Shown: positions 6,749 to 19,613 of the stretch, one piece after another
Position numbering within the stretch: position 1 is the stretch's first letter
Layout of the letters: each line of letters begins with the position of its first letter
IMG/VR virus record: IMGVR_UViG_3300034374_011196
Span: 1-25,246 of that record
Origin: a virus
Strand: one strand, 5' to 3'
DNA: 25,246 nucleotides
Translations under genes and position numbers: made by a program
The notes under the pieces: model-generated
What the model was told of the DNA's origin: nothing
What the model saw: only the letters and a program-made list of their open reading frames with translations
The model's database searches: none

Positions 6749-8221
6749 GTGGGGGACGCATCGGTCGATATCTGGAGGGGCTACGACCCGCTGCCGGCGC
6801 AGACGGCGTTCCATACCTCCACGGCCAAGTGGCGGCTCTACGCAGGAGCCGTGGGCGCGGGGAAGACCAAGGCGGGAAGCCGCGAGGCGATCCGCATCGC
6901 CATCGAGTATCCCAAGAGCCTTGGGATCATCGGACGTAAGGAGTACCGCCCGCTGATGGACTCCACTTGGAGAACCTTCATGCGCGAGCTGGAGATGACC
7001 GGCCTGGTGGAAGCGGGACTGGTCAAGATCACCGGGGGTAAGGCGGCATCCAGTCCTCCGCATGTCCGGTTCTGGAACGGGTCCGAGATCATGTTCCGAA
7101 ACGCCAAGAGCGAGCAGAACTTCCTCGGTGTGGAGCCCGATTGGGTCTACATCGATGAGGGTTCCGAGGTCAGCGACGAGGTCTACGAGATGCTGGGCGC
7201 CGGTCGTCTGCGCGGGACGCCGAATCCTGAGGGGAAGACCATCTCCACGCAGATGATCGCCGGGAAGGAAGTGGAGGTCCGGGTGTCGGGTCCGCTTCGC
7301 ATCTGGATCACCTGCAACCCGGGGCCGTCGAACTTCATCCGGCGGAACTTCGTGCCGCCGGGGACGCGGGGCAAGCGGTCCGTGGGATTCGAGATGTTCG
7401 CCGCCAGGACCGATGAGAACCCATACCTGCCGCCGGAGTACGTCAGGGAGATTGAATCGCGCTTCACCGGAGCCCGGCATGCCGCATATGTGAGGGGCGA
7501 CTGGGGTGCGTTCGAGGGGCAGGTGTTCGTGGAATTCGACCCCGACATCCATGTGGTCGACAACATCGACGCCGGCGCCCTGCGCGGCAAGCTCATCATC
7601 GAGGGGTGGGACTTCGGTCGCGCCGTGGAGACGGCAGTCGTCTGGCTCGCCGTCGATGAGGAGGGAGAGGAGCCTGTCGTGGTCTTCGCGGACTACGGAC
7701 GCGCGGAAGCCGACCCGTCGGAGCATGCCCAGGCGGTGAAGCAGATCCGCCAGCGGTTCGGGATCAGTGAGGTCATGGCTATCGGTGACCCGGCGGGGCG
7801 CCAGCGCGGGGTTTCGGGCTCCTACATGGAGGAATACGCGAGGCAGGGCATATACATCGCGCCCTGCGACAAGGGGAAGAGGCAGGGAGTGCGCGACCAG
7901 AGGCTCGCGCAGATGCTCAACATGAGGGTCATTGGCACGGAGGGGAAGACTCCCGGGTTGGTGATTTGCAGGCGGTGCGAGGGGCTGATCGACTCGATCA
8001 CGGCTGCGAGATACCGCGATGGCGGGCGCGTGGACCGGGATCGGCCGGATGAGCGCGTCAAGAAGGACGACCACCGCCTGGACGCGCTGGAGTACGCGCT
8101 GATGGCGGCGCCGCCGCCCCTGACAGACACGACGGCGGGAAAGCCGAAGTGGCAGGAGTGGGTGGAGAAGGGGATCGTGCTTCCCGGGGCGCAGGACGCG
8201 CTCCGGTTGGCGGGGCGTTGA
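6749..8221 (+). CDS. terL: Terminase large subunit
   Basis: This 490-residue packaging motor starts at the GTG at 6749 behind a purine-rich ribosome-binding run. The N-terminal ATPase has Walker A (GAVGAGKT, residues 33-40), Walker B (VYIDEGSE, about 133-140) and a coupling-type motif (TCNPGP, about 188-193). The C-terminal nuclease has an RNase H-like fold with acidic residues at the expected places: D288 in GWDFG, D347 in IGDPAG and D446 in RLDALEYAL. The enzyme translocates DNA into the prohead through the portal and cuts the concatemer. Its length is normal for the family. It is transcribed alone, away from both the portal and the TerS-like gene (about 5.4 kb downstream on the other strand). 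The long antisense frames across it are shadows. Confidence 0.95.
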   Translation: MGDASVDIWRGYDPLPAQTAFHTSTAKWRLYAGAVGAGKTKAGSREAIRIAIEYPKSLGIIGRKEYRPLMDSTWRTFMRELEMTGLVEAGLVKITGGKAASSPPHVRFWNGSEIMFRNAKSEQNFLGVEPDWVYIDEGSEVSDEVYEMLGAGRLRGTPNPEGKTISTQMIAGKEVEVRVSGPLRIWITCNPGPSNFIRRNFVPPGTRGKRSVGFEMFAARTDENPYLPPEYVREIESRFTGARHAAYVRGDWGAFEGQVFVEFDPDIHVVDNIDAGALRGKLIIEGWDFGRAVETAVVWLAVDEEGEEPVVVFADYGRAEADPSEHAQAVKQIRQRFGISEVMAIGDPAGRQRGVSGSYMEEYARQGIYIAPCDKGKRQGVRDQRLAQMLNMRVIGTEGKTPGLVICRRCEGLIDSITAARYRDGGRVDRDRPDERVKKDDHRLDALEYALMAAPPPLTDTTAGKPKWQEWVEKGIVLPGAQDALRLAGR

Positions 8222-8395
8222 CATAAGAAGCGCCGCCCCGACGGAGTAAGGGACGTCGGGGCGGCGCCTGGTTTGAGCGAGCTGCTGGGCGTCATGGCGG
8301 CTTCCCACTCGCTCCCCTCACCGCTGCTAGCTGCGTGAGGTGGTCCGTCTAGGGGTCCGTTTGCGCTCGAGTTCGCAGGTGCCCCAGTCCCAGCG
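8222..8395 (-). ncRNA. Possible leftward small RNA
   Basis: A promoter-like pair at 8402-8430 would start a leftward transcript near 8395 that ends at the 8230-8267 hairpin followed by TTCTTATGT. The roughly 170-nt product would be well structured: GAGCGAG (8275-8281 region) can pair with CTCGCTC (about 8309-8315), with an inner TGGG/CCCA helix, and a central GCTAGC palindrome lies near 8328. No known RNA family is recognised and the transcript is inferred only from promoter, terminator and folding potential. Confidence 0.3.
8230..8267. terminator. Strong hairpin terminator after terL (usable in both directions)
   Basis: A perfect 14-bp GC-rich stem (8230-8243 with 8254-8267) encloses a 10-base loop (GAGTAAGGGA). 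It begins 8 bases after the terminase stop. Rightward the stem is followed by CTGGTTTG, a weak T tract; leftward by TTCTTATGT, a better one. It should end terminase mRNA and could also end a leftward RNA from the adjacent region. Confidence 0.75.
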
Positions 8396-8401
8396 GCGTT
8401 G

Positions 8402-8430
8402 AGTATACGCATGCCTACGGGGAATGAAAA
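8402..8430 (-). promoter_or_regulatory. Candidate leftward promoter
   Basis: Read on the minus strand, TTTTCA (8425-8430) and TATACT (8402-8407) are separated by exactly 17 bases and match the sigma-70-type consensus at 4 and 5 positions. It points away from the accessory module toward the back of terL and has no protein gene downstream before the hairpin terminator. Confidence 0.4.
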
Positions 8431-8734
8431 GTAGGCCCCGGTTTTACGCCTAAGGGAACCCATATATCACCACTGCCGGCATTCCCGCGACGCCGCCCCC
8501 TCCTCCCCCCCCGGGTGCGCGCCTGGGCTCGCGCGCAGCGCGCGCCGGCGCTCGGGGGTGACTCATACGCGCCAGCACCAGGCGGGGCGGCGGGGCCATG
8601 GGCGGCGGGGACAGGGCACGGCGCGGGGATCCATGGCGGGGCGCATAGGTGATGGCCCTAGACCGTCCCGTCTAGTGCCAAGGGGTCACGGGGAGGGGCC
8701 AGGACGGGGCGCCACGGTGGAGGGTGGCGGCCCC

Positions 8735-8820
8735 GATGAAGCCGGAACGGGGCGGGGTCGTGCGGCGGCGCCGCCCGCCATAAGCGGCGGCGCCGCCGCG
8801 CCACCCCGCCCCGGTTCATC
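8735..8820. repeat. Large imperfect GC palindrome
   Basis: The core is a perfect 14-bp stem (8762-8775 with 8786-8799) built on the self-complementary GGCGGCGCCGCC, with a 10-base loop CGCCATAAGC. Outside it, GGGGCGGGG pairs with CCCCGCCCC and GATGAA with TTCATC, giving an approximately 86-nt cruciform with small bulges. Such a structure could be a terminator, an origin or packaging element, or a protein-bound site. The sequence does not say which. Confidence 0.6.
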
Positions 8821-8853
8821 GCCGCCAATCTGGCGCCAACAGTGCGAAGGGTC

Positions 8854-8949
8854 GCGAGGGTGGCGAGGGTGGCGAGAACTAGTAAAGCCGCCACCCTTAC
8901 GCCGCCAATGTCGCCACCCCCGAAGGGCCGCCAACCATCCGCCAACCAT
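8854..8949. repeat. Short tandem direct repeats, iteron-like
   Basis: Two arrays lie here: GCGAGGGTG repeated about 2.5 times (8854-8876), and a perfect 11-bp tandem repeat CCGCCAACCAT (8928-8938 and 8939-8949). Related CCGCCAAT motifs are at 8822-8829 and 8902-8909. They lie just upstream of the first gene of the accessory module and could bind a replication or regulatory protein. Confidence 0.45.
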
Positions 8950-8991: not shown

Positions 8992-9014
8992 TAGGGTGTA
9001 CCCTGGCCGGTACA
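8992..9014 (+). promoter_or_regulatory. Operator-like palindrome with -10 hexamer, copy 1
   Basis: TGTACC (8997-9002) and GGTACA (9009-9014) form a perfect 6-bp inverted repeat around six bases. Its first base is also the last base of TAGGGT (8992-8997), a plausible actinobacterial -10, so a bound repressor would cover the start point. A weak TGGGCA (8968-8973) could serve as -35. The same palindrome occurs again at 11902-11919. GGGAGGA and the ATG of the next gene follow directly. Confidence 0.55.
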
Positions 9015-9035: not shown

Positions 9036-9482
9036 ATGCACCATTTTGTGACAGTCGTGAACGAACACGCCGACACCATCGGGGTTTTTACGACCCAAGA
9101 GGCGGCGGACGAATTCCGCGCCACCAACCATGAGACAACCCTAACCATCACGCTAGATCAACACGAACTAATCGACGCTATCGGGGCAGATCTGGCGCGG
9201 GAGATGGCAAGCGATGCCGATATGGACGCGGTCCGCTCGGTCAATTGGTGGCGGACAGATTCCGTAGACATTGCGCGACACTATGGGGTCGTCAACACCA
9301 TGGGGATGCCTAACGCGTATGACGGCCCCGGAGATGACCCCCGCGACACCCTGACGGCCGTTCTGTCCATGGCCGACGCGCGGCAAGAGATCGCATTCCG
9401 CGCCGAAGAGAACGATTGGAGCGACAGACCTAGCGACTGGGGTCTCGCTGTTGCTGACGCGCTGGTGTCCCTTTTCCTCTAA
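9036..9482 (+). CDS. Hypothetical protein, first gene of the accessory module
   Basis: This 148-residue acidic protein starts at the ATG at 9036, with GGGAGGA 9 bases upstream and the palindromic operator just before that. An in-frame ATG at 8967 would put the operator inside the gene and is not preferred. The N-terminus (HHFVTVVNEHADTIGVFTTQEAADEF) looks like a small alpha/beta domain with a DF/ATNHE segment. The rest is mostly helical and rich in Asp and Ala, with an aromatic cluster around NWWRTDSVDIARHYG. No family is recognised. Its position behind the operator suggests it is the leading product of a regulated transcript. It lacks the 13-bp repeat found with nearly all later genes of the module. 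Confidence 0.65.
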   Translation: MHHFVTVVNEHADTIGVFTTQEAADEFRATNHETTLTITLDQHELIDAIGADLAREMASDADMDAVRSVNWWRTDSVDIARHYGVVNTMGMPNAYDGPGDDPRDTLTAVLSMADARQEIAFRAEENDWSDRPSDWGLAVADALVSLFL

Positions 9483-9497
9483 GCCCGCGCATGGTGC

Positions 9498-9552
9498 CCC
9501 GCCCCGGCCAGTGACGCCGGGGCGGGCGGGGTCCGAATCCCCGGCGCGGCCA
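9498..9552 (+). other. Leader with GC hairpin and tRNA T-arm-like hairpin
   Basis: An 11-bp perfect stem (9498-9508 with 9516-9526, loop CAGTGAC) is followed directly by a 5-bp stem with a 7-base loop, CGGGG-TCCGAAT-CCCCG (9527-9543), then GCGCGGCCA. The second hairpin closely resembles a tRNA T-arm except for C in place of the second loop T. CCGCGC just after the upstream stop could pair with GCGCGG to close the structure. There is no D-arm, so it is not a tRNA gene. It lies in the leader of the 9586 gene. Confidence 0.4.
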
Positions 9553-9762: not shown

Positions 9763-10057
9763 GACACCACCCCGCCGCTGCTACCAGGTAGCGGCTCGAG
9801 GATCTGGAGGAACCCGCAATGAAAGACGCCGACATCATCACCAAGGACGAAGGCGATTTCGCTCTCGTCTTCACCAAGACGGCAAAGGGTCGCGAATGGG
9901 TGGCCGACGTTCTGGCCCCTTTCGCGAATGGGGAGGACCGCTATGCCGTCCCCGCCGACTACCCCGCGCAACTTGCCCACCAGGCCGACGCCGCGGGCGT
10001 GCGCGTCTATCTCACCTAGACACCACCCCGCCGCTACCTGGTAGCGGCTCGAGGATC
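9763..10057 (+). repeat. Duplicated 40-bp hairpin element behind two stop codons
   Basis: The segments 9763-9804 and 10019-10057 are near-identical. Each begins with the 13-bp repeat, continues into an inverted repeat CCGCTACC...GGTAGCGG (the first copy has three extra bases), and ends with GGCTCGAGGATC. Each directly follows the stop codon of a small gene. They look like paired intergenic cassettes, possibly RNA processing or termination elements, or joints left by gene duplication. Confidence 0.7.
9819..10019 (+). CDS. Small hypothetical protein
   Basis: This 66-residue protein starts at the ATG at 9819 with CTGGAGGA upstream. It is a mixed alpha/beta sequence (DIITKDEGDFALVFTKTAKG, then REWVADVLAPFANGEDRYAVPADYPAQLAHQADAAG in part, ending VRVYLT). 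I do not recognise the family, but short proteins of this kind are common in phage accessory regions. Its TAG stop shares its last base with the next copy of the 13-bp repeat, and it is framed on both sides by the duplicated hairpin cassettes, suggesting that it is a unit that can be gained or lost. Confidence 0.65.
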   Translation: MKDADIITKDEGDFALVFTKTAKGREWVADVLAPFANGEDRYAVPADYPAQLAHQADAAGVRVYLT

Positions 10058-10086
10058 CCCCGGGGCCGTTGACGCGGCCCCGGGGG
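10057..10086 (+). terminator. Perfect 12-bp hairpin, terminator-like
   Basis: CCCCCGGGGCCG (10057-10068) pairs perfectly with CGGCCCCGGGGG (10075-10086) around the loop TTGACG. There is no T tract, so it would be a Rho-dependent, pausing or processing element rather than a textbook terminator. It lies between the 9819 gene and the 10130 gene. Confidence 0.5.
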
Positions 10087-10129
10087 CGCACCACCACCCC
10101 GCAACCCTTGGACGATTGGAGGACCGGCA

Positions 10130-11005
10130 ATGCCGGCCAAGACTAAGACACCACCCCGCGCCCATGCCCGCAGGTCGTCGCGCGGCCACAAAGACACCAC
10201 CCCGCGCGCCGCCGCCGCGATCCGCGCGATAGAGGACGCCGCCGCGGTCGCGACCTGGCGGGGATCCGTACAGGGGAAGAGCGCCAATAGGAAGACAGGC
10301 GCGACACTCACCACCTATTCCCACCCCGCGACCTGCCCCACTACCTGCCCGCTATATGGCGGGGACCGGGGGCCGGATGGCTCGAGGGTTGACCCCGGGG
10401 CCGAATGCTACGCCGCCGCCGGGTACTACACGCGCCGCGCGTGGGAAGGGGTCCGGCTGACCTGGTCGGAATCCCTCGCCAAGATTCGCGCCGCCCGGGC
10501 GCCCATGGCGCGCGGGAACGTGGCCGGGGACATCATCCACGCCGCGGGGCGGATCGTGCGCGCGGCGGCGCTCGAATGGGCGGCGGCCCTTTCCAAGGAT
10601 GGCACGCGTCCCGCGTGGACGTACACCCATCACGCGCCCACCCCGGAGAACCTCGCCACCCTCGCCGCCATGGCGGACGCCGGGACAGTCGTGAACCTGT
10701 CGGCATCGGACCCCGGGGAGGCTTTCGCCATGATGGCGGCGCACCCCGGGCACCCCGTCGCCACGGTTACCCCGGGGAATTCCCCGCGCGTCATCCGCGA
10801 CCAGGATGGGCGCCGAATCGTGCAATGTCCCGCCACCCTCGAGGGGTCCGGCGTTACCTGTCTGACCTGCGGCGGCGGGCGCCCGCTATGCGCCCGGGGC
10901 GGTCGCGACTATGCCATCGGATTCCCGGTGCATGGCGCCCACGCCGGGAAAGGGGAAGCGCGCATGCGCGCGGCGACCGCCCGGGCGGCGGGGGTGACCC
11001 CGTGA
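10130..11005 (+). CDS. Conserved cysteine-containing phage/plasmid protein of unknown function
   Basis: This 291-residue protein starts at the ATG at 10130 with TTGGAGGA upstream. It shows the layout of a recurring phage and plasmid family (I recall it as DUF7227-like, from memory): GKSANRKTGAT, then CPTTCPL (about residue 66), AECYAAAG, a middle TYTHH (about 164), VVNLSASDPGEA, VQCPAT, a CLTCGG...LCARG cysteine cluster and finally YAIGFPVHG. The conserved cysteines suggest a bound metal or iron-sulphur centre, but no enzymatic activity is established. The N-terminal 30 residues contain two copies of the 13-bp repeat in two frames (TPPRAH and DTTPRAA) and look like an added tail. The stop overlaps the next start by GTGA. 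Confidence 0.7.
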   Translation: MPAKTKTPPRAHARRSSRGHKDTTPRAAAAIRAIEDAAAVATWRGSVQGKSANRKTGATLTTYSHPATCPTTCPLYGGDRGPDGSRVDPGAECYAAAGYYTRRAWEGVRLTWSESLAKIRAARAPMARGNVAGDIIHAAGRIVRAAALEWAAALSKDGTRPAWTYTHHAPTPENLATLAAMADAGTVVNLSASDPGEAFAMMAAHPGHPVATVTPGNSPRVIRDQDGRRIVQCPATLEGSGVTCLTCGGGRPLCARGGRDYAIGFPVHGAHAGKGEARMRAATARAAGVTP

Positions 11006-11235
11006 CCGCCCGCCCGTTCGAGGATTGCCCCGGACTGGCGCAAGGGGTGGCGGGGCATGCGGCCATGGTCGTAGCCCTTGCCTACCGCCCAAGCTCCCGC
11101 CCCGGGGCGCGCGCCAGTCTGGCCCGTGCCGCCCGGGCGGGGGCCATCATCGCCGCGAACAGGCGCGCGCGGCGGCGCCGCCATGCGCCGCCCTACCCCG
11201 TCCCCGTGGCGGCGTGGAAGGGGCGCGAATGGTGA
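11002..11235 (+). CDS. Small basic Ala/Arg-rich protein
   Basis: This 77-residue protein starts at the GTG at 11002, overlapping the upstream TGA (GTGA), so it is probably translationally coupled. The body is predicted helical (CPGLAQGVAGHAAMVVALAY) followed by Ala/Arg-rich helices (ARASLARAARAGAIIAANRRARRRRH) and a proline-rich end. No family is recognised. The high Arg content could mean nucleic-acid binding, but in DNA this GC-rich composition is also what a shadow would show. The coupled start and the tight junction to the next gene favour a real gene. It lacks a copy of the 13-bp repeat. Confidence 0.45.
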   Translation: MTARPFEDCPGLAQGVAGHAAMVVALAYRPSSRPGARASLARAARAGAIIAANRRARRRRHAPPYPVPVAAWKGREW

Positions 11236-11432
11236 CCCCTGCCCGCCGCCGCGCCGCCCGCCGGATCGCATGGGCCGCCATTCTCGGATCCTTGGCCCTT
11301 GCCATGGCATCGCATGGCACCACCCCGCCGGATCGCGCGCCGGCGCTCGAGCAGGCCGCCACCAGGTGCGCGGCGATCCTTCACCGGGAGGGGGTGACCC
11401 CGGCCCCCGGCGGATGCCTTCCGCGCCCCTAG
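11229..11432 (+). CDS. Small membrane or secreted protein
   Basis: This 67-residue protein starts at the ATG at 11229 (a GTG follows directly at 11232) with GGAAGGGG upstream and a 7-base overlap with the previous gene. A basic N-terminus (VTPARRRAARR) precedes one hydrophobic helix (IAWAAILGSLALAMA, residues about 13-27), consistent with a signal anchor or signal peptide. The short remainder contains two cysteines (TRCAAIL and GGCLP). A one-mismatch repeat copy encodes Gly-Thr-Thr-Pro just after the hydrophobic segment. It might act at the membrane (superinfection exclusion or lysis accessory), but this is inferred only from topology. Confidence 0.5.
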   Translation: MVTPARRRAARRIAWAAILGSLALAMASHGTTPPDRAPALEQAATRCAAILHREGVTPAPGGCLPRP

Positions 11433-11464
11433 AGACACCACCCCGCGCCAGTGGCGGCGAGGTT

Positions 11465-11482
11465 CCCGGGATCGATCCCGGG
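11465..11482. promoter_or_regulatory. 18-bp perfect palindrome / T-arm-like hairpin in a leader
   Basis: CCCGGGATCGATCCCGGG is a perfect 18-bp palindrome. As RNA it gives a 5-bp stem with the 7-base loop ATCGATC, close to a tRNA T-loop, followed by GGCGGGGCA. The leader resembles that of the 9586 gene: both have CCAGTG[AG]CG, a T-arm-like hairpin and an A/C-rich stretch with AACCAGAAA before the ATG. Confidence 0.45.
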
Positions 11483-11522
11483 GCGGGGCATTCCCGTCAA
11501 CCAGAAACCAACAGGAGAAACC

Positions 11523-11759
11523 ATGGCCGATGACATCACCTGCGCCCATTGCGGCGAGCCCGTGGAGATCCATTACCTGCGGCACGACGCCGCAGAAGAC
11601 ACCACCCCGCCGCCCGGTGGGCACTACCGCGCCACCCTGTCGGGGCAGGGGTGCCCGTTCTGCGGGTACGACCACGACGGACCGGGCGCCCACGACCTGG
11701 AGCGCGTCGCCGCCCTTGCCAGCGGCGTAACGGATGATGACCCGCTCGAGTTCCTCTAG
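11523..11759 (+). CDS. Small zinc-ribbon-type protein
   Basis: This 78-residue protein starts at the ATG at 11523 behind AGGAGA. Two CxxC pairs, CAHC near residue 7 and CPFC near residue 44, are arranged as in small zinc ribbons. Between them lies HYLRHDAAEDTTPPPGGHYRAT, where DTTP is encoded by an exact copy of the 13-bp repeat. The C-terminus is acidic (DDDPLEFL). Such proteins often mediate protein or nucleic-acid contacts. If the zinc-ribbon reading is right, the repeat lies in the linker between the two metal knuckles, where an insertion is tolerable. Function is unknown. Confidence 0.7.
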   Translation: MADDITCAHCGEPVEIHYLRHDAAEDTTPPPGGHYRATLSGQGCPFCGYDHDGPGAHDLERVAALASGVTDDDPLEFL

Positions 11760-11781
11760 CGGCGACACCACCCCGCAGGAC

Positions 11782-11815
11782 CGCGCCCCGGGTGCCGCCA
11801 CGGCCCCGGGGCGCG
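11782..11815 (+). other. Intergenic GC hairpin
   Basis: CGCGCCCCGGG pairs with CCCGGGGCGCG around the loop TGCCGCCACGGC. It lies between the zinc-ribbon gene and the second operator, between two copies of the 13-bp repeat (11764 and 11850). It could be a terminator for the first half of the module, since a new promoter-operator follows. Confidence 0.45.
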
Positions 11816-11896
11816 CTTCGTCGTGCGCGCGGATTCGGCCCGCGCAATCGACACCACCCCGCCACGCGGGCCACCCCGCAGGGCGTGCGCCCCACC

Positions 11897-11919
11897 GATG
11901 GTGTACCATGCCCGGTACA
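11897..11919 (+). promoter_or_regulatory. Operator-like palindrome with -10-like hexamer, copy 2
   Basis: TGTACC (11902-11907) and GGTACA (11914-11919) form the same 6-6-6 inverted repeat as at 8997-9014. Its first T again closes a hexamer in the -10 position (GATGGT). The spacer differs (ATGCCC versus CTGGCC), so the arms are what is conserved. The ATG of the next gene is 29 bases downstream, behind a TTGGAGCAG ribosome-binding site. Confidence 0.55.
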
Positions 11920-11947
11920 TCCCTTGGACGAGATTGGAGCAGCAGAC

Positions 11948-12217
11948 ATGAAAGACACCACCCCGCACACCGTCACGGTGGCGACATACATCAGGACGAC
12001 GAACACGCGCAGCGGCAACCCTCGCCGCGGGTGGATCGTCCGCGAGGTGATCCCGGGCCAGCCCTACGCCGCCGGCGAGGCGTCCTTCGTGGATGAGGGT
12101 TACGAGGGGACCAGCGCGCTGAACGACGCGTTCCCCGGCGCCGTCATCACCTGTTCAGTGGACGTCACCCCGCAGGAGTACCGGGAGCGCGTGCGCCGCG
12201 CGGAGGTGGCGGCATGA
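11948..12217 (+). CDS. Hypothetical phage/plasmid-type small protein
   Basis: This 89-residue protein starts at the ATG at 11948 (GGAGCAG upstream). After KDTTPH, encoded by an exact 13-bp repeat two codons behind the start, it reads as a compact alpha/beta protein: VTVATYIRTTNTRSGNPRRGW, then VDEGYEGTSALNDAFPGAV and VDVTPQEYRERVRR. I recognise this arrangement (NPRRGW, DEGYEG, VTPxEYR) as recurring in actinobacterial phage and plasmid accessory regions, without known function. The stop overlaps the next start (ATGA). It is the first gene behind the second operator palindrome. Confidence 0.65.
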   Translation: MKDTTPHTVTVATYIRTTNTRSGNPRRGWIVREVIPGQPYAAGEASFVDEGYEGTSALNDAFPGAVITCSVDVTPQEYRERVRRAEVAA

Positions 12218-12480
12218 CTACCCACCACACCACCCCGCAGGTGGTCCGCATCGGCGCCACGCGCTGCTCCGGCGCCGTCGTGTGGGAGATCGATGGCGGC
12301 CCGTCCGGCACCTGGTGCGAGATCGACTGGTCCGATAGCCCCTTCGACATGCCCACGACGATCTACCCCGATGAGCGGCACGGGCGCGACGCGTTCGCCC
12401 GCGCCATCGCCCTCGCGATGATGTGCGCCGACCGGGTCACCATCCACCCCAACCTCGAGTTGTCGGGGGTGGAGCGATGA
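12214..12480 (+). CDS. Hypothetical small protein
   Basis: This 88-residue protein starts at the ATG at 12214 overlapping the upstream stop. After MTTHHTTPQ (a one-mismatch repeat copy within the first nine codons) come beta-like strands with conserved-looking Trp positions (GAVVWEIDGGPSGTWCEIDW), then a helix (RDAFARAIALAMMCADRVT) and a short tail. No family is recognised. It forms a coupled trio with the genes on either side (ATGA overlaps at both ends), suggesting that the three products are made together. Confidence 0.6.
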   Translation: MTTHHTTPQVVRIGATRCSGAVVWEIDGGPSGTWCEIDWSDSPFDMPTTIYPDERHGRDAFARAIALAMMCADRVTIHPNLELSGVER

Positions 12481-12686
12481 ACCCCGGCGACACGGTCCGG
12501 TGGTGGACGAGGGATGGCGGATGGAGATTCGGCCACCTCGCCGCCACCGGACACAAGTACGCCCGCGTGAAGATGGGCAGCACGATCAAGCGGGTGCCAC
12601 TGGACGAGCTTCGCCCGTGGCCGCCCCAGTACCAGGACATCCAAGACACCACCCCGCCGACGCGGCGGGTCAAGAGAGGGAGGTAG
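12477..12686 (+). CDS. Hypothetical small protein with SH3-like character
   Basis: This 69-residue protein starts at the ATG at 12477, overlapping the previous stop by ATGA. The sequence MNPGDTVRWWTRDGGWRFG, then GHKYARVKMGS and VPLDELRPWP, has the spacing of short beta strands as in small SH3-like or KOW-like barrels. This is a visual impression, not a family match. The C-terminal tail (QDIQDTTPPTRRVKRGR) carries an exact 13-bp repeat and a basic end. It is followed two bases later by the serine recombinase GTG. Confidence 0.55.
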   Translation: MNPGDTVRWWTRDGGWRFGHLAATGHKYARVKMGSTIKRVPLDELRPWPPQYQDIQDTTPPTRRVKRGR

Positions 12687-12687
12687 C

Positions 12688-13383
12688 GTGACCCCTACCG
12701 ACACCACCCCGGCGGTCATCTACCGCCGCGTGAGTACCGACGACCAGGCCGCGAGCGGCTTGGGGCTCGAGGCGCAGTACCACGCCTGCGACGGCCACGC
12801 CGCCGCCCGGGGCTGGCACCCCGTGGCGGTCTTCACTGACGCCGGAGTGTCCGGCTCCGTGCCCCTCCGCGACCGCCCCGCCGGGGCGCAGGCGGTGGAG
12901 ATGGCAAAGGCACTTGGCGCCATCCTCCTGGTCGCCAAGATGGACCGGCTCGGGCGCGACGCGGTCGATCGGCTCACCACCCTGCGCGCCGCGGCGGATG
13001 AGGGCTGGCGAATCGAGGCCCCTGACATGGGCGGCATCGACGCCGCCACCCCGGAGGGGAAGCTCGTCCACGGGATGATGGCGAGCGTGTCCGAGTACGA
13101 GCGCGAGTTGACGCGTGCCCGCACGCGCGCCGCCCTGCGGGCCAAGATCCGGCGCGGCGAGCGCGTCGGGATGCCGCCGCAGGTTGACCCCGCCGCCGTG
13201 GCCCGTGCGCGCGAGTTGCGCGGCAAGGGCCTGTCATACGCCGACATCGCCGCGTGCCTGGACGACGAGGGATTCGTGCCACCCCGCGCCGCGCGCTGGC
13301 ACCGGAAGACCGTGTCGCACATGGTGACCGGCGAGCCGTGGGGTCAGGTCACCAAGGCAATCAGGGAGGAGCAGCGCGCATGA
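12688..13383 (+). CDS. Serine recombinase (resolvase/invertase family)
   Basis: This 231-residue enzyme starts at the GTG at 12688 with GGGAGG upstream. The N-terminal catalytic domain has the family hallmarks: YRRVSTDDQ (nucleophile Ser16), FTDAGVSGS, LVAKMDRLGRD with catalytic arginines, and SEYERELTRARTRAAL in the dimer helix. A C-terminal helix-turn-helix follows (GLSYADIAACLDDEGF onward). The length matches small resolvases/invertases rather than large serine integrases. Such enzymes resolve dimers, invert segments or move small elements by cutting both strands at paired sites. Its third to eighth residues (PTDTTP) are partly encoded by a one-mismatch 13-bp repeat. It is coupled to the next gene by ATGA. 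With a tyrosine integrase also present, it is probably not the phage integrase. Confidence 0.9.
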   Translation: MTPTDTTPAVIYRRVSTDDQAASGLGLEAQYHACDGHAAARGWHPVAVFTDAGVSGSVPLRDRPAGAQAVEMAKALGAILLVAKMDRLGRDAVDRLTTLRAAADEGWRIEAPDMGGIDAATPEGKLVHGMMASVSEYERELTRARTRAALRAKIRRGERVGMPPQVDPAAVARARELRGKGLSYADIAACLDDEGFVPPRAARWHRKTVSHMVTGEPWGQVTKAIREEQRA

Positions 13384-13637
13384 GTACCGTTCCCGCGATG
13401 GACAACCACGCCAGCAACGACACCACCCCGCGCCGTGATGCGGCCACCCTCGCCGCCCACCGCCGCAGATGGCGCGAGACTGAGAAGGCGCGCCAGCGTT
13501 ACGAGGCGGCGCTGATTACGCGCAACGCCGCCATCCAGGAAGCGATGGACAACGGATGGACGAGCAACGAGCTTGGTGAGGCGGTCGGGGTCAGGGGCAT
13601 CACCATCAGGAAGATGATCTCGCGCCGGCGCAAGTAG
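13380..13637 (+). CDS. Small helix-turn-helix protein
   Basis: This 85-residue protein starts at the ATG at 13380 overlapping the recombinase stop (ATGA). An N-terminal segment (NHASNDTTPRRD, an exact 13-bp repeat) precedes a basic helix (AAHRRRWRETEKARQRYEAALITRN) and a C-terminal helix-turn-helix (GWTSNELGEAVGVRGITIRKMI) ending RRRK. It is likely a DNA-binding partner, perhaps a regulator or accessory factor for the recombinase with which it is co-translated. It is the last rightward gene of the module, converging on the TerS-like gene with only six bases between stops. Confidence 0.7.
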   Translation: MSTVPAMDNHASNDTTPRRDAATLAAHRRRWRETEKARQRYEAALITRNAAIQEAMDNGWTSNELGEAVGVRGITIRKMISRRRK

Positions 13638-13643
13638 CCCCGA

Positions 13644-14153
13644 TCAGTTCTCTTCGACGGCCTCGCCCTCTATGACATCGGGGGCGGGGCCGTCCGTGCT
13701 TACGTCGACACCACCCCGCTCCCACGGGGGCGCGATGTTGATCTGCACGTTCGGCCCGCTCCCGCCACCGCCGCCACCCATGCCCGCCTCGCTCGCCGCC
13801 GGCAGGCCCAGCAGTTCCGATATCTGCTTGGTCATCTTGAGGTCAGCGTCGATGGCCCATTGCTCGCCCTGACGGACGAGCGCCTCTATCCCGGCTCTCA
13901 GTTCCATCAGTCGCCCGGCCTCCTGCACGCGGACGTCGGTCACCTTCAATTTGGCGACCAGTTCCCCATACTCCTCGGCCACGATCCGGTAGGCAGCCTT
14001 CCACCCACCCTCGAGCTTGAGGACTGTGGCGATCTCGCCGTAGGTGCTGCCTGCCATCCGCAGGCGATACGCCTCGTCTTTCTTCGCCTGCTCGCGCAGG
14101 AGATCCGGCGGGAGGGAGCGGGGGTGGAACTTCTCGGGGAGGTCGTCAGTCAT
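13644..14153 (-). CDS. TerS-like protein (probable terminase small subunit)
   Basis: This 169-residue protein starts at the ATG at 14153, overlapping its upstream neighbour by ATGA. Residues about 25-60 form a helix-turn-helix (AYRLRMAGSTYGEIATVL), followed by helices typical of small terminases (VQEAGRLMELRAGIEALVRQGEQWAIDADLKMTKQ in part) and ELLGLPA, then a glycine-rich linker and an acidic tail. TerS proteins recognise the packaging site and load TerL. The placement is unusual: it ends a replication operon, 5.4 kb from terL and on the opposite strand. An exact copy of the 13-bp repeat lies antisense in its C-terminal coding region (13707-13719, within ERGGVD). A general HTH DNA-binding role is the alternative. 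Confidence 0.55.
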   Translation of the reverse strand: MTDDLPEKFHPRSLPPDLLREQAKKDEAYRLRMAGSTYGEIATVLKLEGGWKAAYRIVAEEYGELVAKLKVTDVRVQEAGRLMELRAGIEALVRQGEQWAIDADLKMTKQISELLGLPAASEAGMGGGGGGSGPNVQINIAPPWERGGVDVSTDGPAPDVIEGEAVEEN

Positions 14154-14521
14154 CCCAATGACCTCCAATTCTCCGCAGGGCCGGAGGCTTCGGGGGCGTA
14201 GTGGTAATAGACCTTTCTCCCCCCCGAGCCGGGGACCGTTGTCTTGGTGACCTCCGACCCGCACTTCCCCAGGGCATGGCGGACGGCAACCTCGCTTCGG
14301 CATATCGCCGTGGCTATTTGGCCGGCAGTCATTCCGTGGTTGGTCACTTGGAGAACCGACTTCACCATTTCCGCGAGTGTCATTGCGCCGGGTTCCGCGG
14401 CGTTTAGCCGCATATCAAGAACGGCGATTTCCTCGCCCAGCTCGATGATCTGCGCCCGCTTCTCAAGAATCTCTGCCTCAAGCCGGTACTTTCTCGCCCT
14501 TTCCAGATTGCTGCTACTCAT
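14150..14521 (-). CDS. Coiled-coil plus winged-helix protein
   Basis: This 123-residue protein starts at the ATG at 14521 with an 8-base overlap with the upstream ATPase gene. Residues about 3-42 form a charged coiled coil (ARKYRLEAEILEKRAQIIELGEEIAVLDMRL in part). Residues about 47-110 resemble a winged helix (TLAEMVKSVLQVTNHGMTAGQIATAI, then VAVRHALGKCGSE and GRKVYYHYA). This second part resembles the C-terminal wing of the neighbouring ATPase (TLDEIAQNM, SIRHALRG, GTRGKLLY), so the two domains may share ancestry. It is likely a DNA-binding partner in replication or packaging. Confidence 0.65.
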   Translation of the reverse strand: MSSSNLERARKYRLEAEILEKRAQIIELGEEIAVLDMRLNAAEPGAMTLAEMVKSVLQVTNHGMTAGQIATAICRSEVAVRHALGKCGSEVTKTTVPGSGGRKVYYHYAPEASGPAENWRSLG

Positions 14522-15932
14522 CGATCTCCTCCTCCATGGCGAGCATCTTCTCCCACCTGGCGAGGTCGCCCTCGTCGGTTACCACAGCCTTATAGAGGAG
14601 CTTGCCCCTCGTCCCCGGGATCTTGTCGCTCTTGATCTGCCCATCCTCCGCGCCTCTCAGCGCGTGGCGGATGGAGTCCTTGGTGCGCCCCATGTTCTGC
14701 GCGATCTCATCCAGCGTCATGCCCTGCGGGTTGAGCGCCAGAAGCGACACCACCATCTCGGTCATCGACTTCCCGTCGTCGCGCTCCATGCGCGTGAACC
14801 CGGTCTGCCGGTCGAAGCGCATGTCGATCACGATGCCGGCGTCGATCATCCCGGGCCGGTGCTTGAAGATGTGGAGCCGGGAGTAGCCCGGCCCCGGGCG
14901 CCTCAGGCCAAGGATCACCTCCGCGCCACGGCTGAAGGCTCCCGACCCGAAGATGTCATCCATGCTGAACCCCGCGGAGCCCTGCGGCGTCTTCATCCCC
15001 TTCCTGGTGTGGACGGGCATGACGAATGCGAATCCGTAGGTCGCACGCCAGCGGTCGAACAGGCGCATGAGATCCACGGCCTGCCGCTCGTCGTTGCTGT
15101 CGATCCGCGCAGCCTTGTACAGGGGGTCAACCACCACGATGTCGGGGCGGATCTCCTCGATGATCTCCTCCACCTCAGCGGCGTCGTGGCTCCCCTCCAT
15201 CAGGTCAAGCCCGTCGGGCACCGAGCAATAGACGATGTCCTCTGAATCGGTGAGGCCAGTCTCCTCAGCCAGCCGCTGGATATCGGGGAGCGACTGCTCC
15301 GCATCGATGATCAGCACCTTGGGCCGGCGCCCCTCCTCATCCGGCCCGATGCCCGCCTCGTCCAGGAACTCCTCGCCGTGCAGCACGGCGCGGAGCATCC
15401 ACATGGTGAGGGTTGACTTCCCCTCGCCGGTCCCCGCCCCGATCAGGGTGCGAAGCCCGCGGATGATGTAGGGGCCGAGCAGGGACTCGTACCCCGGGTG
15501 TTCGGTTGCGTATAGCTCCTTGAGGGTGGCGACCTGGAGGCGATGCTCGAGGTGCCCCTCCTCGTCGTACACCGGATCGCGCTCGCCCTTCTCGAACTGC
15601 TTGACCACCGGGTCATCAGCCTCATACCGGCAGACGCTCTGCGCGATGCGCCGGACGTCGCCGTCATCCAGCGGCGGGATGCACTGCTCCTCGTTCACCT
15701 GATGCAGGGCCGCCGAGATGGCGGCGAAGCCCATGCCACGCCGCCGCATGCTCCCGGCGAGCGAGGCGAGGGCGTTGTCCCGCTGGCCCTCGGGGATGGG
15801 GGAGCCCGCATCGCGCCGGTCGGCCACGCGGCGCTGGCCGGCGGCGTTCCAGATCGCACGGGCGAGTTCCTCGGGGATGCGGGGTGCGCCCTCCTGCCAC
15901 GGGGTGGCCGGGACGTTGACGGTTACACCCAT
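14514..15932 (-). CDS. RepA/RecA-fold replication ATPase (helicase-like) with primase C-terminal domain
   Basis: This 472-residue protein starts at the ATG at 15932. Residues about 46-103 match the helical primase C-terminal domain that usually follows a prim-pol (EGQRDNALASLAGSMRRRGM, IPPLDDGDVRRIAQSV). A RecA-fold ATPase follows, with Walker A GAGTGEGKST (165-174), VLIIDAEQ (207-213) and Walker B DIVVVDP (264-270), plus PVHTRKG. The C-terminus is a winged helix (about 385-440). Such ATPases act as replicative helicases in phages and plasmids. The prim-pol domain is encoded by the directly upstream gene, overlapping by 10 bases, so a usually fused primase-helicase is split here into two polypeptides. 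Confidence 0.85.
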   Translation of the reverse strand: MGVTVNVPATPWQEGAPRIPEELARAIWNAAGQRRVADRRDAGSPIPEGQRDNALASLAGSMRRRGMGFAAISAALHQVNEEQCIPPLDDGDVRRIAQSVCRYEADDPVVKQFEKGERDPVYDEEGHLEHRLQVATLKELYATEHPGYESLLGPYIIRGLRTLIGAGTGEGKSTLTMWMLRAVLHGEEFLDEAGIGPDEEGRRPKVLIIDAEQSLPDIQRLAEETGLTDSEDIVYCSVPDGLDLMEGSHDAAEVEEIIEEIRPDIVVVDPLYKAARIDSNDERQAVDLMRLFDRWRATYGFAFVMPVHTRKGMKTPQGSAGFSMDDIFGSGAFSRGAEVILGLRRPGPGYSRLHIFKHRPGMIDAGIVIDMRFDRQTGFTRMERDDGKSMTEMVVSLLALNPQGMTLDEIAQNMGRTKDSIRHALRGAEDGQIKSDKIPGTRGKLLYKAVVTDEGDLARWEKMLAMEEEIDE

Positions 15933-16396
15933 TCGTACCTCCCCCCGTCTGCGCGCAGCGACGGCGGCGCCACGACGAACCCGTTGCCTGCCTTCACATC
16001 CAGCCCGGCGAGCTTCGCCGCCTGCACCTGGCCCTCGAGGTAGAGGTGGATGCCACGCCGGGTCCGCACCTGCGGGCAGCCGGGCACGGTGCCGTTCAGA
16101 CCGTTCAGCCAGTCGGCGCCCTGCTCGTCATCGATGTCGATGACCACCAAGTTGCTGCGCCCGCAGACGATCCCGACGTTCCGTGGCTGCTGGAATTCGC
16201 TCCACCATGCCGCCACGATCTCGGGATCGTTGCTTGCCCTCTCGGGCCAGTCGCGCCACAGCGGGTGCTTGCCTGCCGAGTCGCACTCCATCCCGGCCCA
16301 GCAGGTGCAGGTTCCGTCATCGTTTACCCCGTGCAGCGGAATGACGTACCAACCGTGCCGCGCGTATCGGACCGCCGAATCACCGATGTCATTCAT
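15923..16396 (-). CDS. Bifunctional primase/polymerase (prim-pol) domain protein
   Basis: This 157-residue protein starts at the ATG at 16396 (ATGA overlap with the upstream gene). It contains the archaeo-eukaryotic-type primase signature: YARHGWYVIPLHGV at the start, GKHP (42-45), VVIDIDD with the catalytic acidic pair (about 84-90), TRRGIHLYLEG with the conserved histidine (about 112-122) and GNGFVVAPPSLR. A cysteine pair (CTCWAG) with C38 could form a small metal site. The enzyme would synthesise primers at the phage origin. The protein stops just after the prim-pol fold and its usual C-terminal helper domain sits at the front of the next gene, so the two products presumably form one complex. 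Confidence 0.88.
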   Translation of the reverse strand: MNDIGDSAVRYARHGWYVIPLHGVNDDGTCTCWAGMECDSAGKHPLWRDWPERASNDPEIVAAWWSEFQQPRNVGIVCGRSNLVVIDIDDEQGADWLNGLNGTVPGCPQVRTRRGIHLYLEGQVQAAKLAGLDVKAGNGFVVAPPSLRADGGRYEWV

Positions 16397-16584
16397 GCGG
16401 CGTTCTCCCACCGGCTGCGCCAGTAGGCGACCTCAGTCTCCAGTTCGCGGATCCTGCCCTCCGCGTGCTTGCGGCGGATCCTCTGCACATGAGCTGCGAT
16501 CTTCCACCGGGCCGCGCGACTCTGCTCCCTCCGGCACTTCTCCTTCAACTCCAGCGTGCGGTTCATCTCTTTGTTGATGTCCAT
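16393..16584 (-). CDS. Small basic coiled-coil protein
   Basis: This 63-residue protein starts at the ATG at 16584. It is almost entirely helical and charged (MDINKEMNRTLELKEKCRRE, AARWKIAAHVQRIRRKHAEG, RIRELETEVAYWRSRWENAA), consistent with a coiled coil. The ATGA overlap with the prim-pol gene and the four-base gap from the RuvC-like gene place it firmly in the operon. It may be a small replication or structural adaptor. No family is recognised. Confidence 0.6.
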   Translation of the reverse strand: MDINKEMNRTLELKEKCRREQSRAARWKIAAHVQRIRRKHAEGRIRELETEVAYWRSRWENAA

Positions 16585-16587
16585 CTG

Positions 16588-17049
16588 TCACTCCCCGAAT
16601 GCTTCGATCCACATCGCAATCGCGATGCATGCGGCGTCTGCCTCGTCTTGCGAGCCGGGCACGAACCCGAACTCATCACTCACGAACTCCTTCACGCGCT
16701 CCTTGCTGGCCCGCCCGCCGACGCCAGCGACCTTCCGCCACTCGGTCGGCTGGAAGAACCTGATGGGCGCGTCCCTCCACAGCGAGCGGCACGCGTCTTC
16801 GCATCTGGCGACGGCCATCCCGTGCATGTACGCAGCACGGGGGAAGCCGAAGTGCGGCTGCTCGATCCCGACCCACGCTGGCTCCTTCGCCACGCGCTTC
16901 GCGTCGCGCAGGGCCTCGCGGATCTGCTCCGCTTGGCGGCCCGCCGAGATGCGCGTCATCTCGCAGCGGGCGATCTCGTCCTCGTAGTCGAAGACCGCCC
17001 ACGCGATGCGGGTACCGGAGATGTCGATGCCAACGACGGGGCTACTCAT
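16588..17049 (-). CDS. RuvC-like Holliday junction resolvase
   Basis: This 153-residue protein starts at the ATG at 17049, overlapping the previous gene by 8 bases. It has an RNase H/RuvC fold signature: VVGIDISGTRIAWAVFD with the first catalytic Asp (D9), VGIEQP with the Glu (E63), and DEADAACIAIAMW at the end with the last acidic residues (D135, D138). RuvC-type enzymes cut four-way junctions arising during replication and recombination. In phages they also trim branches before packaging. The length fits the compact phage versions. The longer in-frame extension to 17124 would run across the upstream coding region and is not preferred. Confidence 0.82.
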   Translation of the reverse strand: MSSPVVGIDISGTRIAWAVFDYEDEIARCEMTRISAGRQAEQIREALRDAKRVAKEPAWVGIEQPHFGFPRAAYMHGMAVARCEDACRSLWRDAPIRFFQPTEWRKVAGVGGRASKERVKEFVSDEFGFVPGSQDEADAACIAIAMWIEAFGE

Positions 17050-17248
17050 AGTCGCCCCCTTCGAGCTTCTCCTCCAGTTCGCGGATGATCTCGCAGAGGG
17101 CTTCGCCCTCGGCGTCGTGCTCATCGCAGATGCGGACGACGTCTTCGCACGCCTTGTCGATGGCGAACTTCTCTGCCGCCGACAGACGGTTCGCGAGCGC
17201 CTGGACCGGTGCCAAGCACAGCGCGACGTCCTTGCTGAGGTCGCTCAT
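17042..17248 (-). CDS. Small acidic hypothetical protein
   Basis: This 68-residue protein starts at the ATG at 17248, overlapping the upstream zinc-finger gene by ATGA. It is helical and acidic (LCLAPVQALANRLSAAEKFAIDKAC, VRICDEHDAEGEALCEIIRELEEKLEGGDYE in pieces) with four cysteines, none in a clear metal-binding spacing. No family is recognised. It is probably an accessory factor in the replication operon. Confidence 0.6.
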   Translation of the reverse strand: MSDLSKDVALCLAPVQALANRLSAAEKFAIDKACEDVVRICDEHDAEGEALCEIIRELEEKLEGGDYE

Positions 17249-17619
17249 TTGCGCGCCCTCCAGACAGAGATCACCGACGCCGGCGTCTCGCGCAGACGGA
17301 TCGCCACAGAAGTGATCGCATCCGTCTCGGGACGTCCCATCGCGACCTCGGCATGGATCTCTTGGACGATCCTCCGCTGCGCGGCCTCGTCAGCGACGGG
17401 CATCTCCAGCATCTTGGCGATGGCCCTGATCTCGTTGGCGCTTGCTGCCTTGCGCTGCTTGGCACGTTCCAACTGCCCCTTCTTGCGCTCGCTCTCGCGC
17501 TGCGCGCGGTACATGCGCTGACAGCGCGGTGAGCCGCATGTCATGTAGTTGGGACGCGGTGGGCGGAAGCGAGTGCCGCAGATGGGGCACTCGCGCTCCT
17601 CTGGCCGTTCACGAGTCAC
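17245..17619 (-). CDS. Zinc-finger, helix-turn-helix-type protein
   Basis: This 124-residue protein is started at the GTG at 17619, within the end of the methyltransferase gene (11-base overlap). The longer frame back to 17832 is antisense-like in composition and lies wholly inside the methyltransferase. The N-terminus has CPICGTRFRPPRPNYMTCGSPRC, a CxxC...CxxxxC zinc knuckle similar to those in HNH or recombination endonuclease VII-type proteins. A basic helix (MYRAQRESERKKGQLERAKQ) follows, then a possible helix-turn-helix (TSVAIRLRETPASVISVWR). No HNH catalytic motif is visible. It is likely a DNA-binding accessory protein, perhaps linked to the methyltransferase. Confidence 0.65.
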   Translation of the reverse strand: MTRERPEERECPICGTRFRPPRPNYMTCGSPRCQRMYRAQRESERKKGQLERAKQRKAASANEIRAIAKMLEMPVADEAAQRRIVQEIHAEVAMGRPETDAITSVAIRLRETPASVISVWRARK

Positions 17620-18889
17620 GGAGAACCTCCCTAAACCTGGAGGCAATCCAGTAGGCGACCGGCGCCACGACCCCGTTGCCACATGCCGCGTAGCGCCGGG
17701 AGTCGGGGGCGTGATCCTTCTTGTTCCACGGGATGTCGGTCCAGCCATCGGGCCAACCCATGAGTCGCTCGCACTCCATGGGCGTAAGGCGCCGCACTGT
17801 CGCCTGCTCCTGCACACGGATCCCACGGTCATAGCCCGGGAGGTGCGTCTGCTGCGCCAGCGTCGGGTGGACGTCCGCCTCGTCGACGCGAAGGTCCGCG
17901 CCGTTTCCGTATTCGGGGCGGACGTTGTACGCAGTCACGACATGCGTCGTCCGCGTGGAGCTTGCGTCGAACTGGTTCAGCGTGTTCGCCACGCCGTCAG
18001 TGGCCCATGTCTCGAAGTCGTCGGCGCTCTTGGCGCGGCGGGACTTGCGGTAGACGTAGGCACCCGCGATGTCGGTCGTCCGCTGACCGCCCTGCTGGTT
18101 GCTCGGCAGGGTGCCTGCGATGTCTGTGTTCGACGGGTTGACGCCGACCGGAATGTCGTGCCCGGTCACAAGTTGCCCCTGTCGGACGAACTCCTGGTCG
18201 GTGTACTTGACGTAGGCGGCGGCGGAGAGGGATCCCACGATTCGCCCGCCACCGCCCGCAGCGCCTCGTCCAGCTGCGGCGGAAGCGAGCGGCCACGACG
18301 GGTCGCTCGTCGGAGAATCCCCGCCGCTGCCTTCTGCGACAGCGAGTACTTCTCCGATGCGTTCGGCTCCAGGATCTCCGTCAGCGATGGCGCACACGAA
18401 CACGCGGCACCTTCGCTGTGGCAACCCGAAGTGCTGCGCGTCAAGAGTTCGCCATGTCGCCAGATACCCGAGTTCGGCCAGCGTGTCGAGGACGACCCCG
18501 AAGTCTGCGCCTTTAGTGCTTCCAGAGCTGTAGAGCCCTTGGACGTTCTCAATGAGGACGGCTCGGGGGCGAAGAGCGTCAACGATTCGCATGAACTCGA
18601 AGAAGAGTCCGCTGCGCTCGCCTGCGAGTCCGGCGCGCTTGCCGGCGACGCTGAGGTCTTGGCAGGGGAAGCCTCCGCAGAGGAGGTCGACGTACCCTGC
18701 GCCTTCGTCAACGAGCTTGACGTCTTCGTAGACGGGGACACCGGGGAAGCGGGCCTCAAGGACTGCTCGGCAGTAGGGATCGATCTCAGCGAAGAACTGA
18801 TGCCGGAAACCGGCCCACTGGAGTCCGATGTCCATGCCACCGACTCCTGAGAAAAGAGATCCGGCTGCGAGGGGTGCGGAGGCATTCAC
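17609..18889 (-). CDS. C5-cytosine DNA methyltransferase
   Basis: This 426-residue enzyme starts at the GTG at 18889, overlapping the lysin stop by GTGA; the frame extends further upstream but that part is antisense-like inside the lysin gene. The family motifs are complete and in order: SLFSGVGGMDIGL (motif I, about 11-23), AEIDPYC, GGFPCQDLS with the catalytic Cys (PCQ, 75-77), ENVQGL (114-119), QRRCRV (158-163), and the C-terminal RRLTPMECERLMGWPDGW and GNGVVAPVAYWI (motifs IX and X). The region between holds the target-recognition domain. It would methylate cytosine at position 5 in a specific sequence, shielding phage DNA from host restriction or marking it. No partner restriction gene is seen. 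Confidence 0.92.
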   Translation of the reverse strand: MNASAPLAAGSLFSGVGGMDIGLQWAGFRHQFFAEIDPYCRAVLEARFPGVPVYEDVKLVDEGAGYVDLLCGGFPCQDLSVAGKRAGLAGERSGLFFEFMRIVDALRPRAVLIENVQGLYSSGSTKGADFGVVLDTLAELGYLATWRTLDAQHFGLPQRRCRVFVCAIADGDPGAERIGEVLAVAEGSGGDSPTSDPSWPLASAAAGRGAAGGGGRIVGSLSAAAYVKYTDQEFVRQGQLVTGHDIPVGVNPSNTDIAGTLPSNQQGGQRTTDIAGAYVYRKSRRAKSADDFETWATDGVANTLNQFDASSTRTTHVVTAYNVRPEYGNGADLRVDEADVHPTLAQQTHLPGYDRGIRVQEQATVRRLTPMECERLMGWPDGWTDIPWNKKDHAPDSRRYAACGNGVVAPVAYWIASRFREVLRDS

Positions 18890-19419: not shown

Positions 19420-19458
19420 CCGACCCGAGGACACTGGTGCGCGCTTCTTCGGCGCACC

Positions 19459-19500
19459 TTCCCAAGCTGAGGGTCGCCGGTTCGAGCCCGGTCGCCCGCT
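19459..19500 (+). other. attP core: 3' part of tRNA-Gly(CCC)
   Basis: From the anticodon loop TTCCCAA onward the sequence reads as a tRNA: GCTGA (3' anticodon stem), GGGTC (variable), GCCGG-TTCGAGC-CCGGT (T-arm), CGCCCGC (3' acceptor strand) and T. The 5' part is missing: the preceding GCACC does not pair with GCTGA and no GCGGGCG acceptor strand precedes. This is the identity segment by which an integrating phage restores the tRNA gene it enters. The integrase starts 114 bases to the right. The host target would be tRNA-Gly with anticodon CCC. Identity may extend a few bases further at either end. Confidence 0.88.
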
Positions 19501-19563
19501 TGACGTAAAGAACCTGCTAATACGCATATTCGTCTCCCTCCTCATGCGGTGACAGAAACACAG

Positions 19564-19597: not shown

Positions 19598-19613
19598 GAG
19601 TACCGTTGCCTCC

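Follow-up and report, generated by a model that had tools for sequence, protein, structure and literature searches.

A dispersed, one-directional 13-base sequence in the accessory module of a temperate phage and its candidate role in transcription

Introduction

What kind of signal is a 13-base sequence that recurs along one strand of a phage module, behind stop codons, behind start codons and inside genes? The question is raised by IMG/VR record IMGVR_UViG_3300034374_011196, a temperate phage fragment that we analysed over its complete length of 25,246 bases (hereafter the window). The sequence, GACACCACCCCGC (hereafter the 13-mer), had been pointed out in a first-pass annotation made from the letters of the window, and it occupies a module between the gene for the terminase large subunit (TerL) and the Prim-Pol/helicase genes. 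Judged by comparison of the window with related phages, the 13-mer is very probably a previously undescribed control signal and not an accident. Our best guess is that, with the A or C that precedes it, the 13-mer is under selection and serves one operon region of the phage as a directional recognition sequence.

Results

Twelve exact copies of the 13-mer lie within window positions 9763–13719, all on the + strand, and none lies elsewhere in the window (Table 1). Three further copies have one mismatch and two have two mismatches, and inverted copies with up to one mismatch were not found in the window. The commonest 12-mers across the 25 kb are nearly all fragments of the 13-mer. An origin by chance or GC bias was rejected, as shuffled sequence is expected to hold 0 copies, against the 12 exact ones observed. 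The base 5′ of the motif is A or C in all 21 exact copies of the window and of a relative described below, among which no further conserved base was found outside the motif, and the consensus is MGACACCACCCCGC (M = A/C). On each of these points, that is the counts, the positions, the absence of inverted or outlying copies in the window, the preceding A or C and the dismissal of chance, the first-pass annotation was right.

The placement of the copies follows gene edges, and no other shared position relative to start or stop was seen. Five of the twelve exact copies are outside genes (behind A, B, where the copy overlaps the stop, D and E, and in the E/F gap), six are within genes in the sense direction (two in C, and one each in E, F, H and J), and one is antisense within K. 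Copies that follow starts do so at +6 to +21 nucleotides (nt). The annotation had stressed that the copies fall in different reading frames, which was overstated: five of the six exact sense intragenic copies are in frame 0, where they read GAC ACC ACC CCG (DTTP), as are the one-mismatch copies in D, G and I. It holds for the copy at 10147, which is in frame 2, and for the antisense copy at 13707. Two palindromes in the window match the pattern GGTGTACCNTGNCCGGTACA, against 0.01 expected, and are probably the operator/promoter sites of two + strand units, A0–E and F–J. All 13-mers are downstream of the first palindrome, within these two units or at their 3′ ends. Sense copies are absent from the minus-strand genes of the window, and likewise from those of the remaining parts of the two relatives that also carry the 13-mer.

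The first of these relatives, L120 (G001, 30.6 kb), is 99.7% identical to the window across window positions 12689–25246, and has copies in H, I, J and K with none in the remainder of its 30.6-kb record. The other is a contig (JAUIAC010000043.1; L164/L176) in a metagenome-assembled genome (MAG), with identities to the window of 74% for the helicase, 83% for C, 90% for I, 76% for J and 56% for K. Within 3.7 kb of this MAG relative there are nine exact copies and two with one mismatch, every one on the equivalent strand; neither the rest of the 27-kb contig nor that of the 7.4-Mb MAG has an exact copy. No comparable cluster was found in 378 other genomes of the MAG’s phylum, in which copies are mostly scattered at a level like that of a reversed control pattern. 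A Chi, DNA-uptake or host-wide signal was rejected, since all nine exact copies of the 7.4-Mb MAG are on the phage contig; the Chi-like signal considered in the first-pass annotation is thereby dismissed. A pattern search of IMG/VR for more carriers gave essentially only chance singletons among the matches listed, and protein searches with C and I gave none beyond L120. As a separate observation, L120 and the MAG relative have a gene, HI (reverse strand, about 505–790 in L120; 65% identical between the two), that is cleanly absent at window 12686–12688.

Scans with the capsid and the terminase identified a family of syntenic phages with the order terminase, + strand small-gene module, resolvase I, convergent K and helicase. 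The exact 13-mer occurs in 0 of the 13 syntenic records tested. The closest complete syntenic relative is G003 (terminase 91%), whose orthologs of F, H, I, J and K are without the residues that the repeat encodes. The N-terminus of F is M-HVAV in G003 and MKDTTPHTVTVA in the window; relative to the window, H of G003 has a four-residue gap at DTTP and its K is about five residues shorter at the antisense copy.

Comparison of the window with the MAG relative indicates that selection acts on the nucleic acid and its position. At the eight sites that can be aligned, 102 of 104 motif bases are identical, compared with 223 of 323 flanking bases (Fisher p about 6e-12). The second copy in gene C follows the first by 46 nt in the window (frame 0) and by 15 nt in the MAG relative (frame 2). 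The last copy is antisense inside K in the window and directly past the stop of J in the MAG relative, in + orientation in both. Slot F holds unrelated genes in the two phages (F in the window, F′ in the MAG relative), each with a 13-mer just past its start. Because of this frame change, this relocation between K and J and the presence of the element in both slot-F genes, the alignments lead us to conclude that the 13-mer is conserved as nucleic acid and by position. For the first-pass claim of such conservation, the MAG relative is independent evidence. A member of the F′ family is also present in L120, between G and H (25% identity, E 7e-9), where it has no copy. By this comparison it is the slot rather than the gene that decides the presence of the 13-mer, because F and the unrelated F′ both carry a copy and the F′-family gene in another slot does not. 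Conservation is not complete: the E copy is absent in the MAG relative and the copy past the start of I is degenerate there. The copy at the G start has one mismatch in the window and is exact in the MAG relative.

A repeat at the protein level was rejected on the grounds that 5 of 12 copies are noncoding, one is antisense, one changes frame between orthologs and the DTTP codons are invariant. Under phage codon use, the invariant GAC ACC ACC CCG would be expected at 0.084 per copy. One genome of the MAG’s phylum has a true (PDTTPP)n protein repeat, which is written with varied codons.

Other short elements occupy the same module in sister phages. The annotation had held that relatives with the same genes, no repeats and no difference in function would refute its reading; G003 orthologs do lack the 13-mer, but another directional element is found there. 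This is GCAACCCTTCCGA, with five exact copies in G003, always just 5′ of the Shine-Dalgarno sequence and ATG, hence start-associated, and one or two more in G008. Like the 13-mer it has 13 bases, is one-directional and has the same position in the module. Since cognates of GCAACCCTTCCGA occur in the window as well, the two words are not orthologous. Four more distant syntenic phages (L137, L138, L139 and L141) showed no analogous dispersed words, only tandem or acidic-codon repeats. In addition, tRNA-like folds of about 50–70 nt stand directly past stop codons in the accessory module of the window and relatives, with a 7-bp outer stem, a small hairpin and a T-arm-like hairpin with a TTCGA-type loop. 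The sequences of their outer stems differ while 6–7 of 7 pairs are kept, and in one case the 5′ side of that stem is supplied by ACCCCGC of copy 5 of the 13-mer. A descriptor search found six such folds against 0.4 expected, all in the accessory module and on one strand; ARAGORN and Rfam did not recognise these folds.

Discussion

Among known systems, the nearest functional analogues are stoperators and start-associated sequences (SAS), both named in the first-pass annotation, and the 13-mer belongs to neither family. Stoperators of Cluster A (L5-like) mycobacteriophages are 13-bp asymmetric sites present in many copies at gene junctions, mainly in one orientation relative to transcription, with specificities that vary among related phages, and the repressor bound to them halts RNA polymerase in one orientation only (PMC9283540, PMC6550527). 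The 13-mer is likewise 13 bp, asymmetric and in many copies of one orientation (12 + 3 in the window, 9 + 2 in the MAG relative). Unlike the genome-wide stoperators, it is confined to one 4-kb module, and many of its copies are inside coding sequence. The two-domain repressor of Cluster A (a helix-turn-helix, HTH, and a stoperator domain in about 183 residues) was not recognised here, the module proteins other than the recognised repressor not having been modelled against that of L5; the repressor recognised is a 110-residue CI-type HTH protein. The resemblance to the L5 core that had been noticed is partial: between the reverse complement of the 13-mer, GCGGGGTGGTGTC, and the L5 consensus, which we take to be GGTGGMTGTCAAG, only GGTGG and TGTC are shared, and their spacing is one base off.

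The SAS of Cluster K are also 13-bp and asymmetric, with 11–19 copies in one orientation in the non-structural half only; they are absent from the host genome, are common to genes of different families, and lie 3–7 bp 5′ of start codons with partial anti-16S pairing (PMC3203893). The 13-mer shares the asymmetry, the single orientation, the non-structural region and the absence from the rest of the MAG, but its copies stand past starts, past stops and inside genes. Phages of Microbacterium Cluster EC have an asymmetric 18-bp motif in 12 copies of the same orientation, mostly at non-structural genes, in intergenic positions 22–30 bp 5′ of starts; it is less strictly conserved (PMC7302621). The 13-mer is similar to it in copy number and orientation and differs in sequence and placement.

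The likeliest mechanism, which we put forward tentatively and at somewhat less than an even chance, is that a module protein, J or a different one, binds the sites and modulates + strand transcription. The 13-mer would mark gene ends and beginnings in the two + units, each headed by a palindrome; a phage-encoded protein, for which J is the best candidate, would bind, as an asymmetric complex, to the sites in DNA, where it would hinder or modulate RNA polymerase travelling in the + direction. The accessory genes may thereby be held down or graded in expression, as with stoperators. We infer the binding protein, its identity, the action at the level of DNA and the effect on transcription alike. 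The reading is stoperator-like because the fixed orientation, the many copies at junctions and the strict base conservation match stoperators. J, which is encoded at the end of the second unit, is a candidate from its predicted HTH and from its recognition region, TSNELGEAVGVRGITIRK, which is the same in the two carriers but not in G003, a phage without the 13-mer. In the AlphaFold model, J has a long helix, two HTH helices and a disordered tail that contains the residues encoded by the repeat. The CI repressor encoded at 22991 (110 residues), which had been proposed for binding tests, was rejected as the favoured binder: its recognition region is about as different between the carriers as between them and G003, and so does not covary with the 13-mer. 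J is the better candidate.

Several points weigh against binding by J as in stoperators. A PDB fold search with the model of J returned no significant match. The covariation of J involves two carriers and one non-carrier, and all module proteins are closer between the carriers. A promoter-like palindrome is close to just one copy, that at 11850, and no 13-mer lies on the operator-like palindromes, unlike in L5, where the repressor of the stoperators has an operator as well. Furthermore, a signal at the level of RNA would explain about as well why the copies share one orientation and lie at gene edges. In that case, the main rival, which is possible though on the unlikely side, the 13-mer would be read in polycistronic mRNA at gene borders, as a site for an RNA-binding protein, an antisense RNA, processing or antitermination. 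The single orientation relative to + transcripts and the copies directly past stops and +6 to +21 nt past starts fit this, and several stop-proximal copies are a few nt 5′ of hairpins (copy 2, for example, is followed by the hairpin CCGCTACCTGGTAGCGG and then by a strong one at about 10056–10086). In the window, the 18 nt 3′ of the motif fold with the motif tail above background (z −4.3), but this trend was chosen among several offsets, and the copies of the MAG relative give z −1.2 and a mean percentile of 0.40. A universal RNA element of conserved sequence plus hairpin, nut-like in kind, is accordingly less likely, its signal being significant in the window and not reproduced in the MAG relative. 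The copy at 11850, moreover, has a conserved hairpin of the terminator type on one side and the next promoter-like palindrome on the other and is probably outside transcripts, and searches for known RNA families (Rfam) and tRNAs gave no relevant match.

That the repeats are cassette boundaries, serving as recombination sites or homology patches for swaps of accessory genes, agrees with the sites at gene edges, the slot F with unrelated genes and a copy at each end, and the serine recombinase encoded within the module. The annotation had proposed this too, but the breakpoints of gene gain and loss, once checked, lie elsewhere: HI and the extra gene between G and H of L120, two events in L120 or the MAG relative versus the window, were gained or lost away from the repeats, and the HI-gene junction in the window is not at a 13-mer. 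In addition, G003 has the recombinase without the sites, and the sites of serine recombinases are paired inverted half-sites, unlike the direct, single 13-mers. We regard this explanation as improbable. A short micro-repeat of selfish or mutational origin, spread by duplication and tolerated at gene edges, seems slightly more improbable still. It would suit the comparison with G003, where the copies resemble 12–15-nt in-frame additions in F, I, H and K, and the 15-nt tandem formed by two copies in the MAG relative; against it, the motif bases are far more conserved than their flanks at about 20% divergence, all copies, the antisense one included, face strictly one way on one strand, degenerate copies are few and only one region is involved. 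Equally little probability attaches to a replication or packaging signal bound by an initiator, primase or terminase, as the location between TerL and the Prim-Pol/helicase genes might suggest, given that syntenic phages have the same replication and packaging genes without the 13-mer and that its presence shows no covariation with helicase, K or TerL.

A broader view, which we consider unlikely, would treat these elements as exchangeable punctuation at gene borders. Lineages would use different short directional words in one syntenic module (the 13-mer in the window, L120 and the MAG relative, GCAACCCTTCCGA in G003 and G008, and the tRNA-like folds behind stops), and the words would be tied to the slot, so that incoming genes come under common positional control.

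Short asymmetric repeats recur in actinobacterial phages, as in SAS and the Cluster EC motif, yet among such elements stoperators alone are understood. The 13-mer adds a third placement, past stops and inside frames after starts. It also comes with a natural comparison set: two carriers that have diverged from each other, a syntenic phage that has another element and not the 13-mer, and a small candidate binder encoded in the same operon. Should J bind the sites, site and protein together would be a compact pair for controlling accessory phage genes according to their position.

Features of the module and the fragment

The features discussed above are collected in Table 1.

Table 1. Positions of the 13-mer copies, of neighbouring genes and of other elements (window coordinates unless a contig is named)
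Feature	Position	Strand	Remarks
TerL	6749–8221		terminase large subunit
Palindrome GGTGTACCCTGGCCGGTACA	8995–9014	.	operator-like; upstream of gene A0
tRNA-like fold	9482–9552		
Copy 1	9763–9775	+	exact; adjoins gene A stop (TAA 9760–9762)
Copy 2	10019–10031	+	exact; first base common with TAG stop of gene B
Degenerate copy	10090–10102	+	two mismatches; precedes gene C leader CAACCCTTGGACGATTGGAGG
GCAACCCTTCCGA cognates	10100, 11924		
Gene C	10130–11005	+	DUF7227 protein; 83% identical in MAG relative
Copy 3	10147–10159	+	exact; +17 nt from gene C start, frame 2; same place in MAG relative
Copy 4	10193–10205	+	exact; in gene C, frame 0
One-mismatch copy GGCACCACCCCGC	11316–11328	+	within gene D; identical in MAG relative
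Copy 5	11434–11446	+	exact; 1 nt behind gene D stop
tRNA-like fold	11440–11489		outer stem begins in copy 5
Copy 6	11598–11610	+	exact; in gene E (EDTTPPP); not in MAG relative (EDYGPPP)
Copy 7	11764–11776	+	exact; 4 nt behind gene E stop, few nt 5′ of terminator-type hairpin
Copy 8	11850–11862	+	exact; E/F intergenic, between hairpin and F operator/promoter (probable); one mismatch in MAG relative
Palindrome GGTGTACCATGCCCGGTACA	11900–11919	.	upstream of gene F; conserved in MAG relative
Copy 9	11954–11966	+	exact; +6 nt from gene F start (M-K-DTTP); residues extra versus G003
Degenerate copy	12161–12173	+	two mismatches; 3′ part of gene F
One-mismatch copy	12226–12238	+	behind gene G start; exact in MAG relative
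Copy 10	12645–12657	+	exact; gene H C-terminal codons; in L120 and MAG relative despite differing flanks; not in G003
Gene I	12688–13383	+	serine recombinase (resolvase family)
One-mismatch copy	12700–12712	+	last base G; behind start of resolvase gene I
Gene J	13380–13637	+	small predicted HTH protein; candidate 13-mer binder
Copy 11	13419–13431	+	near gene J start; exact in window, L120 and MAG relative
Gene K	13644–14153	−	convergent; contains antisense 13-mer copy
Copy 12	13707–13719	+	exact; inside convergent K, antisense; 70 nt past J stop
AAA/PriCT helicase	14514–15932		
Prim-Pol	15923–16396		
Tyrosine integrase	19614–20672		
CI-type protein	22991–23323		110 residues
GCAACCCTTCCGA, G003	L153 18350, 17433, 16962, 15968, 15660	−	
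GCAACCCTTCCGA, G003	L135 12597		
GCAACCCTTCCGA	L136 12368, 13138		
tRNA-like folds, G003	L153 about 18496–18440, 17532–17480, 17048–17000	−	
tRNA-like fold, G003	L135 about 12533–12582		
tRNA-like fold	L136 about 13061–13112		
tRNA-like fold, MAG relative	L176 about 1305–1355		

An AlphaFold model of C from two input sequences has a mean predicted local distance difference test score (pLDDT) of 32. For gene K, a PHROG match (6e-6) carries the label RNase E, but by its context and C-terminus the protein resembles a small terminase subunit. The window also encodes a cytosine methylase. Elsewhere in the syntenic family, the 68-kb IMG/VR record 3300008107_000123 has two different capsid genes of the family on one contig and is possibly a chimera, a concatemer or tandem prophages.

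Between the terminase and A0, window 8230–8930 is a long GC-rich noncoding stretch with large inverted repeats, including 28-nt arms at 8748–8813, and may be an origin or packaging region. Directly 5′ of the tyrosine integrase, at 19467–19505, there is a sequence like the 3′ end of a tRNA, GGGTCGCCGGTTCGAGCCCGGTCGCCCGC, which is likely the attP core for a tRNA gene.

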